From: Alicyclobacillus contaminans DSM 17975
GTDB taxonomy: Bacteria > Bacillota > Bacilli > Alicyclobacillales > Alicyclobacillaceae
Length of the DNA stretch: 51,165 nucleotides
Reading direction: 5' to 3'
NCBI RefSeq assembly: GCF_000429525.1
Contig: NZ_AUCA01000025.1
Span: 1 to 51,165 of the forward strand
Each line of letters starts with the position of its first letter. Position 1 is the stretch's first letter. The position numbers and the translations under genes were made by a program. Under the pieces are notes generated by a model, which did not search any database, was not told the origin of the DNA, and was given only the letters and a program-made list of their open reading frames with translations. Shown one piece after another: positions 27,164-30,692 of the stretch.

Positions 27164-27454
27164 TCATTCCGTAAGAAAATCCACAGCCACCGAACTCTCC
27201 ACGGCAGGTGTGAGCACCTGGAGCAACTCTTGGTGTACGGGATGCACCGCATACCGCTCGAGCGCTGATTTGTCGGCAAGTCGCGCAATCAACGCAATGT
27301 CATAGCTGCGTGCCGAGTGCACGACATCCACGCCCACTTCGATATCTTCCAGTTCTGGAATCCGCCCTTTCATGGCGCGGGCCTGCGCCACCAAGGCCGA
27401 TGCTTGGGTCTTGGCTTCCGGCTTGAGTCGGAACAATACCACGTGTGTGAACAT
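27164..27454 (-). CDS. Dabb (stress-responsive alpha/beta barrel) protein
   Basis: Protein of 96 residues with the Dabb signature: MFTHVVLFRLKPEA at the start and HPVHQELLQVLTPAV near the end, plus SYDIALIARLADKSALERYAVHP. Such domains form a dimeric barrel and often bind small aromatic or terpene-like ligands. The ATG at 27454 follows AAGGGG. The stop of the methionine permease lies upstream, so it sits just after the met operon and could be read from it. No function is known. Confidence 0.85.
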   Translation of the reverse strand: MFTHVVLFRLKPEAKTQASALVAQARAMKGRIPELEDIEVGVDVVHSARSYDIALIARLADKSALERYAVHPVHQELLQVLTPAVESSVAVDFLTE

Positions 27455-27458
27455 CCCG

Positions 27459-28127
27459 TCATCCCCTTGACCGTTTTCTCGACACCGAGGCGACGATGCG
27501 GTCGCCAATCCATTGCATCACCTGCACCATCACAATCATGATCACAATGGTAACAAACATCACGTCCGTCTGAAATCGTTCGTATCCGTACCGGATGGCG
27601 AGGTCTCCAAGGCCGCCGCCGCCCACCACACCGGCCATGGCTGAATAACTGATCAGCGCCACCGCCGTGATGGTCACCCCGGAGATGAGCCCCGGCCTGG
27701 CTTCCGGCAACAGGACGTTGTACACAATCTGCCAGGTGGACGCGCCCATGGATTGGGCGGCCTCAATGACGCCTGCGTCCACTTCGCGCAGCGCTGTTTC
27801 CGCTAGGCGCGCGTAGAACGGGGCAGCGCCCACCACCAACGGCACGATGGCTGCGTTGGTCCCAATGGACGTTCCCACCACCCATTCGGTGAACGGGATC
27901 AGAGCGATGAGGAGGATGATGAACGGTACGGATCGGAAAATGTTCACGATGACGGACAACAGTTCATAGACCACTCGATGCTGAACCGATGCCCGCTTGG
28001 AAAACAGATAGAGCAGAACACCGATGGGCAACCCAATCACCACTGCCAGCACAGTGGCGACGGCCACCATGTACAGGGTCGACAGGCTTGCCTGCCAAAC
28101 CTCCGGCCAAACCACATCAGACAACAT
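27459..28127 (-). CDS. metP: Methionine ABC transporter permease
   Basis: Membrane protein of 222 residues with five or six helices. It holds the ABC permease EAA loop (EAAQSMGASTWQIVYNVLLPEARPGLISG) and the N-terminal YMVAVATVLAVVIGLPIGVLL. This is the MetI/MetP permease that imports methionine with MetN and MetQ. It lies four bases after metN, so it is cotranscribed from the riboswitch-controlled promoter. Confidence 0.93.
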   Translation of the reverse strand: MLSDVVWPEVWQASLSTLYMVAVATVLAVVIGLPIGVLLYLFSKRASVQHRVVYELLSVIVNIFRSVPFIILLIALIPFTEWVVGTSIGTNAAIVPLVVGAAPFYARLAETALREVDAGVIEAAQSMGASTWQIVYNVLLPEARPGLISGVTITAVALISYSAMAGVVGGGGLGDLAIRYGYERFQTDVMFVTIVIMIVMVQVMQWIGDRIVASVSRKRSRG

Positions 28128-28130
28128 GTA

Positions 28131-29159
28131 TCACACCTCCACTGCAACAGGGGTCAGGCGACGCTCCTCCACCCCGCAACCCTTGGTACGTAAAGCCGCT
28201 ACGGCCGCAGCCACTGCATCCTCTTCACCTTGCCAAGCCACCAACAGCTTGCCGTACGGCACATCTTTCAACGCCCCGATGCTGCCTTCGAGAATGCTGA
28301 ACGACGCCCCGGTTTCGCGGGCTACCTCCGCCAACACGGGCGCATACGTCATGTCACCCACAAACGTGACTTCGAAGACCGGCGCCGACGTTGCGTGGCT
28401 CGGCAGCACCGTACGTCGATGGCGCCCGTCCACGTTCAGCAGGCGGCGCGTGACCTCGTGCTGCGGTTGCAAAAAGACATCCGCCACGCGCCCCAATTCC
28501 ACCACCTTGCCGTGTTCCATCACCGCCACGCGGTCGCACATCCGTTGAATCACCGACATCTCGTGCGTGACCATGACCATGGTCAAACCGAGGCGGCGGT
28601 GAATATCGAGGAGCAGGTCGAGAATCGCCTGGGTGGTGTCCGGATCGAGCGCGGATGTGGCCTCATCGCACAACAGCACGTCTGGATCATTTGCCAAGGC
28701 GCGCGCAATCGCCACCCGCTGCTTCTGCCCGCCGGAGAGCTGCGCCGGGTAATGTTTTTCAAAGCCGCGCAGCCCCACCAACTCCAGCAATTCATGCACC
28801 TTGTCCATCGCCGCTCGCCGCGGCACGCGCGCCAGCCGCAGGGGAAACGCGACGTTGTCCGCCACAGAGGCGGAATTCAGCAGATGAAAATGTTGAAAAA
28901 TCATGCCAATTTTCTTTCGCGCTTGCTGCAATTCGCGCCGGCCGAGCTGAGTGAGATCAGTTCCATCCACCTCCACCCGGCCTGCGGTCGGACGTTCCAG
29001 CAGGTTGATGCACCGCAGAAGCGTGCTCTTCCCCGCGCCCGAATACCCGATTAAACCAAAAATCTCACCGTCTTCCACGCGCAGCGACACGTCTTGGACC
29101 GCGGTCACGGTCTGATGACGGGATTTGTATGTTTTGGTGATATGGTCGAGAACAATCAC
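28131..29159 (-). CDS. metN: Methionine ABC transporter ATP-binding protein
   Basis: ATPase of 342 residues. Walker A GYSGAGKST, signature LSGGQKQR, Walker B DVLLCDEATSALD and H-loop VTHEMSVIQ are intact. The C-terminal 100 residues form the NIL domain that binds methionine and gives feedback inhibition (VTFVGDMTYAPVLAEVARETGASFSI is the start of it, read across several short blocks). The GTG start at 29159 follows AAAGGGAGGG. It is the first gene of metN-metP and is preceded by its own SAM riboswitch and terminator. Confidence 0.95.
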   Translation of the reverse strand: MIVLDHITKTYKSRHQTVTAVQDVSLRVEDGEIFGLIGYSGAGKSTLLRCINLLERPTAGRVEVDGTDLTQLGRRELQQARKKIGMIFQHFHLLNSASVADNVAFPLRLARVPRRAAMDKVHELLELVGLRGFEKHYPAQLSGGQKQRVAIARALANDPDVLLCDEATSALDPDTTQAILDLLLDIHRRLGLTMVMVTHEMSVIQRMCDRVAVMEHGKVVELGRVADVFLQPQHEVTRRLLNVDGRHRRTVLPSHATSAPVFEVTFVGDMTYAPVLAEVARETGASFSILEGSIGALKDVPYGKLLVAWQGEEDAVAAAVAALRTKGCGVEERRLTPVAVEV

Positions 29160-29231
29160 CGAAATCCCTCCCTTTGTCCACAGATTTCTTCGTCCGACGA
29201 GTCAGGGGCGCTACGGCAGCATCCCTGCACG

Positions 29232-29254
29232 AAAAAAGCGCCCGAGAAGGGCGC
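29232..29254 (-). terminator. Riboswitch-linked terminator of metN-metP
   Basis: On the minus strand GCGCCC-TTCTC-GGGCGC is followed by TTTTTT. It lies between the aptamer and the metN ribosome binding site. With SAM bound, the aptamer should leave this terminator free to form. Confidence 0.85.
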
Positions 29255-29270
29255 ACACCGTCAGCTCTTC

Positions 29271-29380
29271 TCTCATCTTTCGGACGAAACGCATGCGAGC
29301 AACGTCCGCAGGAATTGGCACCGTAAAGATTCGGTTGCCGTGGCTTCGCAGGGCCTGTCCCTCTGCCACTCTGGATGAGA
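29271..29380 (-). ncRNA. SAM-I (S-box) riboswitch upstream of metN-metP
   Basis: On the minus strand the outer stem TCTCATC...GATGAGA encloses the S-box core: GCAGAGGGACAGGCCCTGCGAA, CACGGCAACC and CGGTGCCAATTCCTGCGG (each given in part). Order and spacing of these blocks match known SAM-I aptamers: asymmetric loop AGAGGGAC, kink-turn helix, GGCAACC and GGTGC-AATTCC. It is followed by a terminator and then metN. SAM binding is expected to stop transcription of the operon. Confidence 0.9.
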
Positions 29381-29505
29381 CACCGTTATATTCGATTTCG
29401 ATGGGGTGAACGGTCCAGCCGCCAGCGACGTCCACCGCCGTACCGATATCAGCGCGCAATTCCAGTACGTGAACAATGTTCGGATGCCGCTGACAATGCT
29501 GTTTA

Positions 29506-29532
29506 TTGTATTGCTCAAAAATTTTTTGTCAA
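29506..29532 (-). promoter_or_regulatory. Likely promoter of metN-metP
   Basis: On the minus strand TTGACA (29532-29527) and TACAAT (29511-29506) with a 15-base spacer, or ACAATA with 16. The leader to the aptamer is about 115 bases. It sits four bases from the -35 of the rightward metQ promoter. Confidence 0.5.
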
Positions 29533-29536
29533 GTTG

Positions 29537-29565
29537 TTGACTTTCGTTCCTGGCGCGTCTATCAT
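29537..29565 (+). promoter_or_regulatory. Promoter of metQ
   Basis: TTGACT (29537-29542), 17 bases, TATCAT (29560-29565). The expected start is near 29572, about 45 bases before the SAM-I aptamer. Confidence 0.7.
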
Positions 29566-29617
29566 CGGGTGGTGTAATCGGCGCGATGGATGCGCTACAA
29601 ATATCATAGCACACAAG

Positions 29618-29719
29618 CTCTTATCGAGAGAAGGCTGAGGGACTGGCCCAATGATGCCCGGCAACCGGCAGAAATGCACGGTGCTAACTCCTGCGGAATC
29701 ATGTTCCGGGAGATAAGAG
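29618..29719 (+). ncRNA. SAM-I (S-box) riboswitch upstream of metQ
   Basis: The outer stem CTCTTATC/GATAAGAG encloses the S-box core in order: GAGAAGGCTGAGGGACTGGC, CCGGCAACC and CGGTGCTAACTCCTGCGG. It is an almost textbook SAM-I aptamer. A terminator follows at 29737-29764 and metQ starts at 29814. SAM should lower metQ expression. Confidence 0.95.
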
Positions 29720-29736
29720 GCGGAGACACTCATACG

Positions 29737-29764
29737 CCCTCTTTCCCCTGGAAAGAGGGTTTTG
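29737..29764 (+). terminator. Riboswitch-linked terminator of metQ
   Basis: CCCTCTTTC and GAAAGAGGG form a 9 bp stem around CCCCT, followed by TTTT. It lies between the aptamer and the metQ ribosome binding site, as expected for a transcription-termination riboswitch. Confidence 0.85.
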
Positions 29765-29813
29765 ATATGTCCGGCTCTCTCGAGAGCGAGAAAAGAAAAG
29801 GAGTGGGGAAACC

Positions 29814-30692
29814 ATGAAAATCACATCCTACTTCAAGACGGTGGCAGCTGCGGTGACCAGCGTTGTGCTGTTGGCAGGCTGCGGCGCGTCGGCCGACAAC
29901 AACTCGTCGAACGCGACCGGCGCATCGAATGGCAAGCCGATAGTCCTCAAGGTTGGAGCCAACCCTACGCCGCACGCGGAAATTTTGGATTACGTGAAAC
30001 CGAAGCTGGCGAAGGAAGGCATTGACTTGGAAGTGGTGGTATACCAGGATTACATCCAACCGAACCGCGCCCTGGCCAGCGGGGATCTGGATGCAAACTA
30101 TTTCCAACACGTCCCGTATCTGAATGATTACAACAAAAAGAACGGCACCGACTTGGTACCCACCGTGTCGGTCCACTTTGAGCCGCTCGGACTCTACGCG
30201 GGCCGCAGCAAGTCTCTGACGAACGTGAAGGATGGCGCCACGGTGGCGGTTCCAAATGATACAACCAATGAAGCGCGGGCGCTGCTCCTGCTGCAGGATG
30301 CCGGGTTGATTCAACTGAAAGATCCGAATTCGCTGTCGGAGACCGTCCAGGACATTGTTCAAAATCCGCATCACCTCAAGATTCAGGAGCTGGAAGCAGG
30401 AACTATCCCGCGGGTACTGCGCGATGTGGATTACGCGGTCATCAATGGCAACTATGCGATTGACGCAGGATTGAAGCCGTCCGAAGCGTTGTACTCGGAA
30501 AAGGCGGACTCGCTGGCGGCCAAGACCTACGCGAACTGCGTGGTGGTGCGCAAGGGCGACGAAAACAAGCCCGCCATTCAGGCGCTGGACAAGGCGCTCA
30601 CCTCGCCGGATGTAGCGGCGTACATTAAGTCGCACTTCCAGGGCGCCGTGGTTCCTGTGTTCGATGCTATCCAGCCCACGTCCTCGAAGTAA
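29814..30692 (+). CDS. metQ: Methionine-binding lipoprotein MetQ
   Basis: Extracellular substrate-binding lipoprotein of 292 residues. The signal peptide ends in the lipobox LLAGCG (Cys near residue 23), followed by a Ser/Asn-rich linker. The NlpA/MetQ fold is shown by VLKVGANPTPHAEILDYV, LDANYFQHVPYLNDYN, VAVPNDTTNEARALLLL and NYAIDAGLKPSEALY. It binds methionine and hands it to MetN-MetP. It is encoded separately from metN-metP in the opposite direction, with its own SAM riboswitch. The ATG follows AAAAGGAGTGGGG. Confidence 0.95.
   Translation: MKITSYFKTVAAAVTSVVLLAGCGASADNNSSNATGASNGKPIVLKVGANPTPHAEILDYVKPKLAKEGIDLEVVVYQDYIQPNRALASGDLDANYFQHVPYLNDYNKKNGTDLVPTVSVHFEPLGLYAGRSKSLTNVKDGATVAVPNDTTNEARALLLLQDAGLIQLKDPNSLSETVQDIVQNPHHLKIQELEAGTIPRVLRDVDYAVINGNYAIDAGLKPSEALYSEKADSLAAKTYANCVVVRKGDENKPAIQALDKALTSPDVAAYIKSHFQGAVVPVFDAIQPTSSK

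Follow-up and report, generated by a model that had tools for sequence, protein, structure and literature searches.

The genes of what appears to be one methionine importer are split in Alicyclobacillus contaminans DSM 17975 into two divergent units, metN-metI and metQ, and the sequences support the view that the two halves of this transporter stand behind two SAM-I (S-box) riboswitches that have been kept in parallel. The divergent layout is a trait of the family Alicyclobacillaceae and represents a real and old regulatory arrangement. In the reading that I favour, and to which I assign a probability of roughly four in five, each unit would have its own sigma-A-type promoter and its own SAM-I OFF switch, the two switches would be old sister copies, and the split would decouple the amounts of the two halves. 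The stretch analysed, hereafter the window, is the whole of contig NZ_AUCA01000025.1 from position 1 to 51,165 (51,165 nucleotides). Its importer genes are:

27459-28127, minus strand: metI (metP), methionine ABC permease, 222 aa (NCBIfam NF008049, 230.1 bits, cut-off 212; PF00528)
28131-29159, minus strand: metN, methionine ABC ATPase with a C-terminal NIL domain, 342 aa (TIGR02314, PF00005, PF09383)
29814-30692, plus strand: metQ, methionine-binding lipoprotein, 292 aa (PF03180, MetQ/NlpA lipoprotein, 303.2 bits, cut-off 27)

These are the parts of a MetNIQ importer: a MetI above its curated cut-off, a MetN with a NIL domain (PF09383, 62.4 bits, cut-off 24) and a lipoprotein of the MetQ/NlpA family. 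The best NCBIfam family for metN is TIGR02314 MetN at 356.7 bits, which is below the equivalog cut-off of 499.7, and metQ lies below the stricter NCBIfam cut-offs (TIGR00363, 188.8 bits against 228.85; NF008285 MetQ, 181.5 against 374). The genes do not form the canonical metNPQ operon, metQ being on the plus strand, metN-metI on the minus strand, and the leaders being two. The initial annotation had metN-metP and metQ running in opposite directions, and the gene coordinates and strands agree with it, the interval that it named being the intergenic gap; it also took them for one split transporter, which is borne out by the single MetI match (E <= 1e-30) and single MetQ match (E <= 1e-20) in the genome, so that the two units should make one importer. 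Directly after metI lies a Dabb (stress-responsive A/B barrel) protein (27164-27508, minus strand); read from an internal ATG, it would start just past the end of metI and may share the SAM-controlled transcript.

The gap between metN and metQ (29,160-29,813) contains two full SAM-I aptamers, one on each strand, and between them a promoter-like site for each unit:

29270-29381, minus strand: SAM-I (S-box) aptamer of metNI (RF00162, 88.1 bits, E 1.2e-19, full length 1-108)
29505-29532, minus strand: predicted metNI promoter TTGACA - 16 - TACAAT (consensus match; 0 of 100 shuffles score as high)
29537-29565, plus strand: predicted metQ promoter TTGACT - 17 - TATCAT (consensus match; 1 of 100 shuffles scores as high)
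29618-29719, plus strand: SAM-I (S-box) aptamer of metQ (RF00162, 82.7 bits, E 4.3e-18, full length 1-108)

Both aptamers exceed the curated cut-off of the covariance model (44.4 bits), and an Rfam scan of the whole window gave nothing else over threshold. An S-box on each unit had been claimed at the outset, as had aptamers that differ in sequence and keep the core, and both claims hold: the two full-length matches are 74% identical over shared columns, and the core strings GAGGGAC, GGCAACC, GGTGC and TCCTGC are present in each. SAM-I aptamers pair L2 with J3/4, and here L2 (CAGG for metN, CTGG for metQ) shows complementarity to CCTG in J3/4. Each aptamer precedes methionine transport genes (metN-metI on one side, metQ on the other), in keeping with the gene context of the SAM-I class, and, with opposite strands and promoter-like sites in between, they do not make up a tandem SAM-I pair. 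Elsewhere in the genome the four remaining S-boxes stand before genes for homoserine dehydrogenase, a cystathionine synthase/lyase-type enzyme, O-acetylhomoserine sulfhydrylase and metH; import is thus tied to the same SAM signal as methionine synthesis.

Each aptamer is followed by a candidate expression platform in which a strand of P1 is shared with an antiterminator and a terminator comes after:

29267-29272, minus strand: metN antiterminator 5' half GAGAAG, overlapping the 3' strand of P1 (by complementarity)
29244-29249, minus strand: metN antiterminator 3' half CTTCTC, inside the terminator (complement of GAGAAG)
29238-29254, minus strand: intrinsic terminator of the metN leader, a GC stem and then T6 (hairpin and T run)
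29715-29720, plus strand: metQ antiterminator 5' half AAGAGG, overlapping the 3' strand of P1 (by complementarity)
29738-29743, plus strand: metQ antiterminator 3' half CCTCTT, inside the terminator (complement of AAGAGG)
29736-29760, plus strand: intrinsic terminator of the metQ leader (hairpin and T run)

A simple terminator scan of the gap found two, and shuffled sequences give 1.0 +/- 1.0; because this barely exceeds the shuffles, conservation is the better evidence. The terminator that the initial annotation placed on each unit is there, as a hairpin and T run after both aptamers, and terminators recur in 27 of 27 related leaders, none of them equalled by more than 2 of 100 mononucleotide shuffles in strength. 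The metN pairing is found in all 12 metN leaders, as CTTCTC facing GAGAAG (10) or GAGGAG with one G-U pair (2), a pairing read from the leader sequences, the scripted strongest helix being another in a few rows. In 12 of 15 metQ leaders CCTCTT has AAGAGG opposite it, or GAGAGG with a G-U pair; this pairing is absent in the three genomes of genus g5, whose metQ antiterminators are weak, being equalled by 65 to 74 of 100 shuffles. Many antiterminators are unremarkable as single helices (0 to 29 of 100 shuffles as strong for metN, 0 to 74 of 100 for metQ), so the case for them rests on conservation. Several metQ leaders also have a GC-rich hairpin near their start (29572-29617, plus strand, in the window), similar in position and different in sequence, which is weak or absent in genomes G020 and G022. 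I rejected it as a conserved element, as 4 to 76 of 200 shuffles were as stable in 12 of 13 leaders and that of G022 was unfolded.

To trace the arrangement, 41 Alicyclobacillaceae genomes from 16 genera were surveyed, as the initial annotation had proposed for related genomes. An S-box match was found in 32 of them, MetQ in 17 and MetI in 17, the MetQ and MetI genomes falling in 7 of the 16 genera. These 17 genomes hold 18 metNI/metQ loci; metNI and metQ are neighbours in every one and divergent in 17. By their S-boxes the divergent loci are:

Two S-boxes: G000, G016, G004, G006, G007, G008, G014, G020, G023, G024, G025, G029
metQ-side S-box only: G021, G022, G035
No S-box: G009, G028

The claim that the aptamers are kept in parallel is therefore upheld within the family, both recurring at the same places in 12 of the 17 divergent loci, from genera g1, g2, g4, g5 and g8. 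A permissive scan (E up to 5) of the five loci with one or no S-box revealed no further S-box, its only hits being to snoRNA and lncRNA families and below threshold. The sole non-divergent locus of the 18, G023:C53, is an ordinary metN-metI-metQ operon with one diverged S-box; its MetQ is 43% identical to that of the window, an identity from which this operon is probably a separate acquisition.

The promoters are called throughout as consensus matches. In the window the divergent -35 boxes lie back to back between the two aptamers, 4 nt apart, and a spacing of 4-5 nt is found in 9 of the 15 loci with an S-box (g1, g2, g8 and g12), whereas the three g4 loci have 16 nt and the three g5 loci 27-67 nt. 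In G014, G004 and G022 the metN promoter does not stand out from chance (11, 12 and 15 of 100 shuffles as high). Where the -35 boxes are so very close, their spacing suggests that a polymerase at one promoter may keep another off its neighbour.

How old the two switches are can be judged from their sequences. Of the 90 family aptamers listed, I compared 75: 15 metQ-side, 12 metN-side, the single one of the ordinary operon and 47 others. The remaining 15 belong to ten genomes that lack the locus (G001, G017-G019, G031-G034, G038 and G039). Between genera, metQ aptamers share a mean identity of 0.88 with one another (176 ordered pairs) and metN aptamers 0.79 (104); for metQ against metN aptamers the mean is 0.76 (138 pairs), and partners at the same locus are likewise 0.76 alike (12). 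The best match outside its own genus is another metQ aptamer for all 15 metQ aptamers and another metN aptamer for 10 of the 12 metN aptamers, those of G007 and G008 matching O_G037_L153 instead. J3/4 reads GGTGCTAACTCC in 15 of 15 metQ aptamers, and GGTGCCAATTCC (6), GGTGCTAAATCC (5) or GGTGCCAAATCC (1) in metN aptamers. GGTGCTAACTCC is not unique to metQ, occurring in 4 of the 47 other aptamers as well, namely L033 (G016), which precedes the methionine salvage gene mtnW, and L137, L139 and L141 (g4).

In the free aptamer tree, built on 106 columns, neither group is one clade, and in 200 bootstrap trees the metQ group is recovered in 12% and the metN group in 10%. When metQ, metN, or metQ and metN together were constrained to one clade, the likelihood was above that of the free tree by 25.2, 23.5 and 28.6 units, with p-AU of 0.98, 0.90 and 0.96, respectively. 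With only 106 columns, the tree is support for a duplication and not proof of it. On these comparisons the aptamers seem to form two lineages, metQ and metN, each passed down separately and with a platform of its own, and the simplest reading would be one duplication of the leader before the carrier genera parted, the two switches then being inherited side by side as old sister copies.

What, then, might the two switches do? Each unit would start at its own sigma-A-type promoter and run into its own SAM-I riboswitch. By the OFF logic of the known SAM-I class, bound SAM would let P1 hold the antiterminator strand, so that the terminator can fold and the unit is shut off; when SAM is scarce, the antiterminator would form and the unit be transcribed through. 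That these aptamers bind SAM I likewise infer from their class. Binding-protein importers usually need their lipoprotein in excess, and a split operon would give the lipoprotein its own promoter and attenuator; its presumed purpose would be to free the amount of binding protein from that of permease with both still under SAM. Most likely each S-box ends its own transcript at high SAM, and the split allows the levels of permease and binding protein to be adjusted separately.

A difference in set-point between the leaders was sought in the strength of the P1 helix, and the means are nearly equal (-8.6 kcal/mol for metN vs -8.3 kcal/mol for metQ), so none is evident. The fifth position of P1 is C in all 12 metN aptamers (TCTCATC...GATGAG) and T in 63 of 63 other aptamers compared, but nearest-neighbour energies are nearly the same, and different set-points from helix strength were discarded as an explanation. 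The mean E(on)-E(off) is +6.3 kcal/mol for 12 metN leaders and +2.5 kcal/mol for 15 metQ leaders, values that leave out SAM and the pseudoknot, include some rows with poorly chosen helices and carry no weight here.

The nearly equal P1 energies, together with mean antiterminator energies that are also alike, lend weight to the strongest alternative, a neutral split in which the leader was copied by an old inversion, the ancestral control was kept, and the switches answer alike without gain. The possibility that the metQ and metN aptamers are sister copies would suit this history as well, as would the five divergent loci without one or both switches. I regard it as a serious contender at a little under even odds; against it, both switches persist in five genera with aptamer and platform sequences specific to each group, and the back-to-back -35 boxes keep their 4-5 nt spacing in nine of the 15 S-box loci.

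The reading of two working switches must also accommodate the loci that lack one. With 5 of 17 divergent loci missing one or both S-boxes, the pair is dispensable. Where a single S-box is missing it is always the one before metN (3 of 3 loci), and these absences probably represent two events, if loss is assumed. Within g4, G020 has both S-boxes and G021 and G022 have none before metN; in the metN leaders of the latter two (L020 and L019, respectively) the aptamer is absent and a terminator-like hairpin stretch remains, most clearly in G022, where GCACGCCTTCTCGAGCGTGTTTT resembles an old terminator, although the terminator scan does not call it. Such a leftover hairpin could act as a fixed attenuator before metN.

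This one-sided pattern could mean that the metQ switch alone matters, MetQ supply setting uptake while the metN-side S-box fades, and the greater likeness of metQ than of metN aptamers across genera (0.88 > 0.79) points the same way. I nevertheless consider this unlikely, since a metN aptamer above the cut-off, with both a terminator and an antiterminator complement, is retained at 12 of 17 loci, and in the window the metN aptamer outscores its metQ partner. Weaker than either alternative is the idea that metQ serves another transporter and that two unrelated SAM-controlled units are merely neighbours, which the opposite strands of metQ and metNI might suggest but which is barely credible given that the genome has a single match each for MetI and MetQ and that the two units adjoin at every family locus, nearly always divergently.

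A further reading is that the locus is a ratio device. Promoters with -35 boxes 4-5 nt apart would be unable to hold a polymerase each at the same moment and would share initiations, and two separately evolved attenuators with different platforms would pass transcripts at different SAM levels. I hold this to be quite unlikely; if true, binding protein and permease would not move together, and their ratio would change with SAM.

The two loci without any S-box, in G009 and G028, belong to different genera and have TTTCATAGTATACCGATATG in common over the metQ -10 region (L022, about 2418-2460, in G028; L023, about 2447-2490, in G009). Its 15-base core TAGTATACCGATATG, allowing at most one mismatch, was found once more in 11 genomes (in G011), and the reversed control was also found once (in G010). 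TTTCATAGTATACCGATATG was therefore rejected as a replacement operator for the S-box, its core being as rare as the reversed control and indicating no regulon. The whole genome of G009 is devoid of S-box matches at E <= 0.001. In its genus, g2, nine of 15 genomes are without a SAM-I match at this threshold (G009, G002, G003, G005, G010-G013 and G015) and the other six have one to four, an apparent loss of the whole S-box set within the genus.

In a single family the same place thus carries two S-boxes, one or none, depending on the locus, and G023 has both the divergent and the ordinary operon form, a ready comparison for asking what is gained by separate regulation of binding protein and permease. 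Nature here offers a recurring example of one protein complex under two riboswitches of the same class on separate transcripts, and the comparison extends to how paired riboswitches stay distinct instead of becoming alike.

Outside the family the divergent layout was looked for in three samples. Among the best 80 of at least 594 confirmed MetQ loci in a scan of named genomes, two are divergent, and both are from species already met in the survey: A. kakegawensis (now Paenalicyclobacillus, family Alicyclobacillaceae; G021) and A. cellulosilyticus (G028). Of the other 78 of these best 80, metI and metQ share a strand in 70 and 8 are without metI in the stretch covered, so that 0 of 78 have a divergent metI and metQ. 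A class sample of 81 genomes, 75 of them from other families, gave 122 MetI matches (E <= 1e-30) in 71 genomes, layout outside the order being judged by MetI and MetQ positions rather than by S-box pairs. MetQ (E <= 1e-40) starts within 10 kb on the same strand in 116 of the 122, five have none, and one (G086:C52) has MetQ on the opposite strand about 7 kb off with no S-box over threshold; G112:C39, one of the 116, carries in addition a further MetQ on the opposite strand. The order's other family gave an S-box in 17 of 18 genomes and MetQ in 0 of 18, with no close opposed S-box pair among the matches listed for these 18. Within these samples the divergent layout is confined to Alicyclobacillaceae. 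The initial annotation's statement that metNPQ is usually one operon agrees with gene orientation in both the named loci (0 of 78 divergent, among the best 80 of at least 594) and the class sample (116 of 122 matches on the same strand).

All the components of this arrangement are known; what is new, as far as could be seen, is their divergent pairing as a trait of a family. A partial literature search, in part on narrow terms, found no divergent SAM-I pair on a methionine transporter in titles and the beginnings of abstracts, which is weak evidence. A parallel in orientation is the ubiG-mccB-mccA operon of Clostridium acetobutylicum, for which an antisense-acting SAM riboswitch is described (PMC9943018). 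There too a SAM-I switch is oriented against a neighbouring operon, but in the window each switch faces its own gene, and with diverging transcripts whose predicted starts fall in the space separating the aptamers, no antisense overlap is expected. Tandem SAM-I riboswitches, of which a review counts 164 doubles and one triple, likewise put two SAM-I aptamers on one function, and the main text of that review does not contain 'divergent', 'opposite strand' or 'bidirectional' (PMC9481103). Tandem aptamers share one transcript and are believed to sharpen one response, whereas here each aptamer has its own strand and transcript.

The metNPQ operon of Bacillus subtilis reportedly carries a single S-box. 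That usually one riboswitch serves metNPQ, as the initial annotation also held, finds an example in Bacillus methanolicus, where '(SAM)-metN-metP-metQ' is described as one operon with a single S-box before metN-metP-metQ (PMC4342826). The Bacillus operon has the same transporter genes, riboswitch class and transcription attenuation but is a single co-directional unit with one aptamer, whereas here there are two divergent units with two diverged aptamers. B. subtilis is also said to have multiple S-boxes of differing SAM sensitivity, controlling different operons. For B. subtilis transcripts under SAM-I leaders, one study describes induction that differs in time and strength (PMC8882085). Several SAM-I switches of differing sequence occur within one genome in both cases; here, unlike the separate B. 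subtilis operons, two of them precede the halves of what should be one protein complex.
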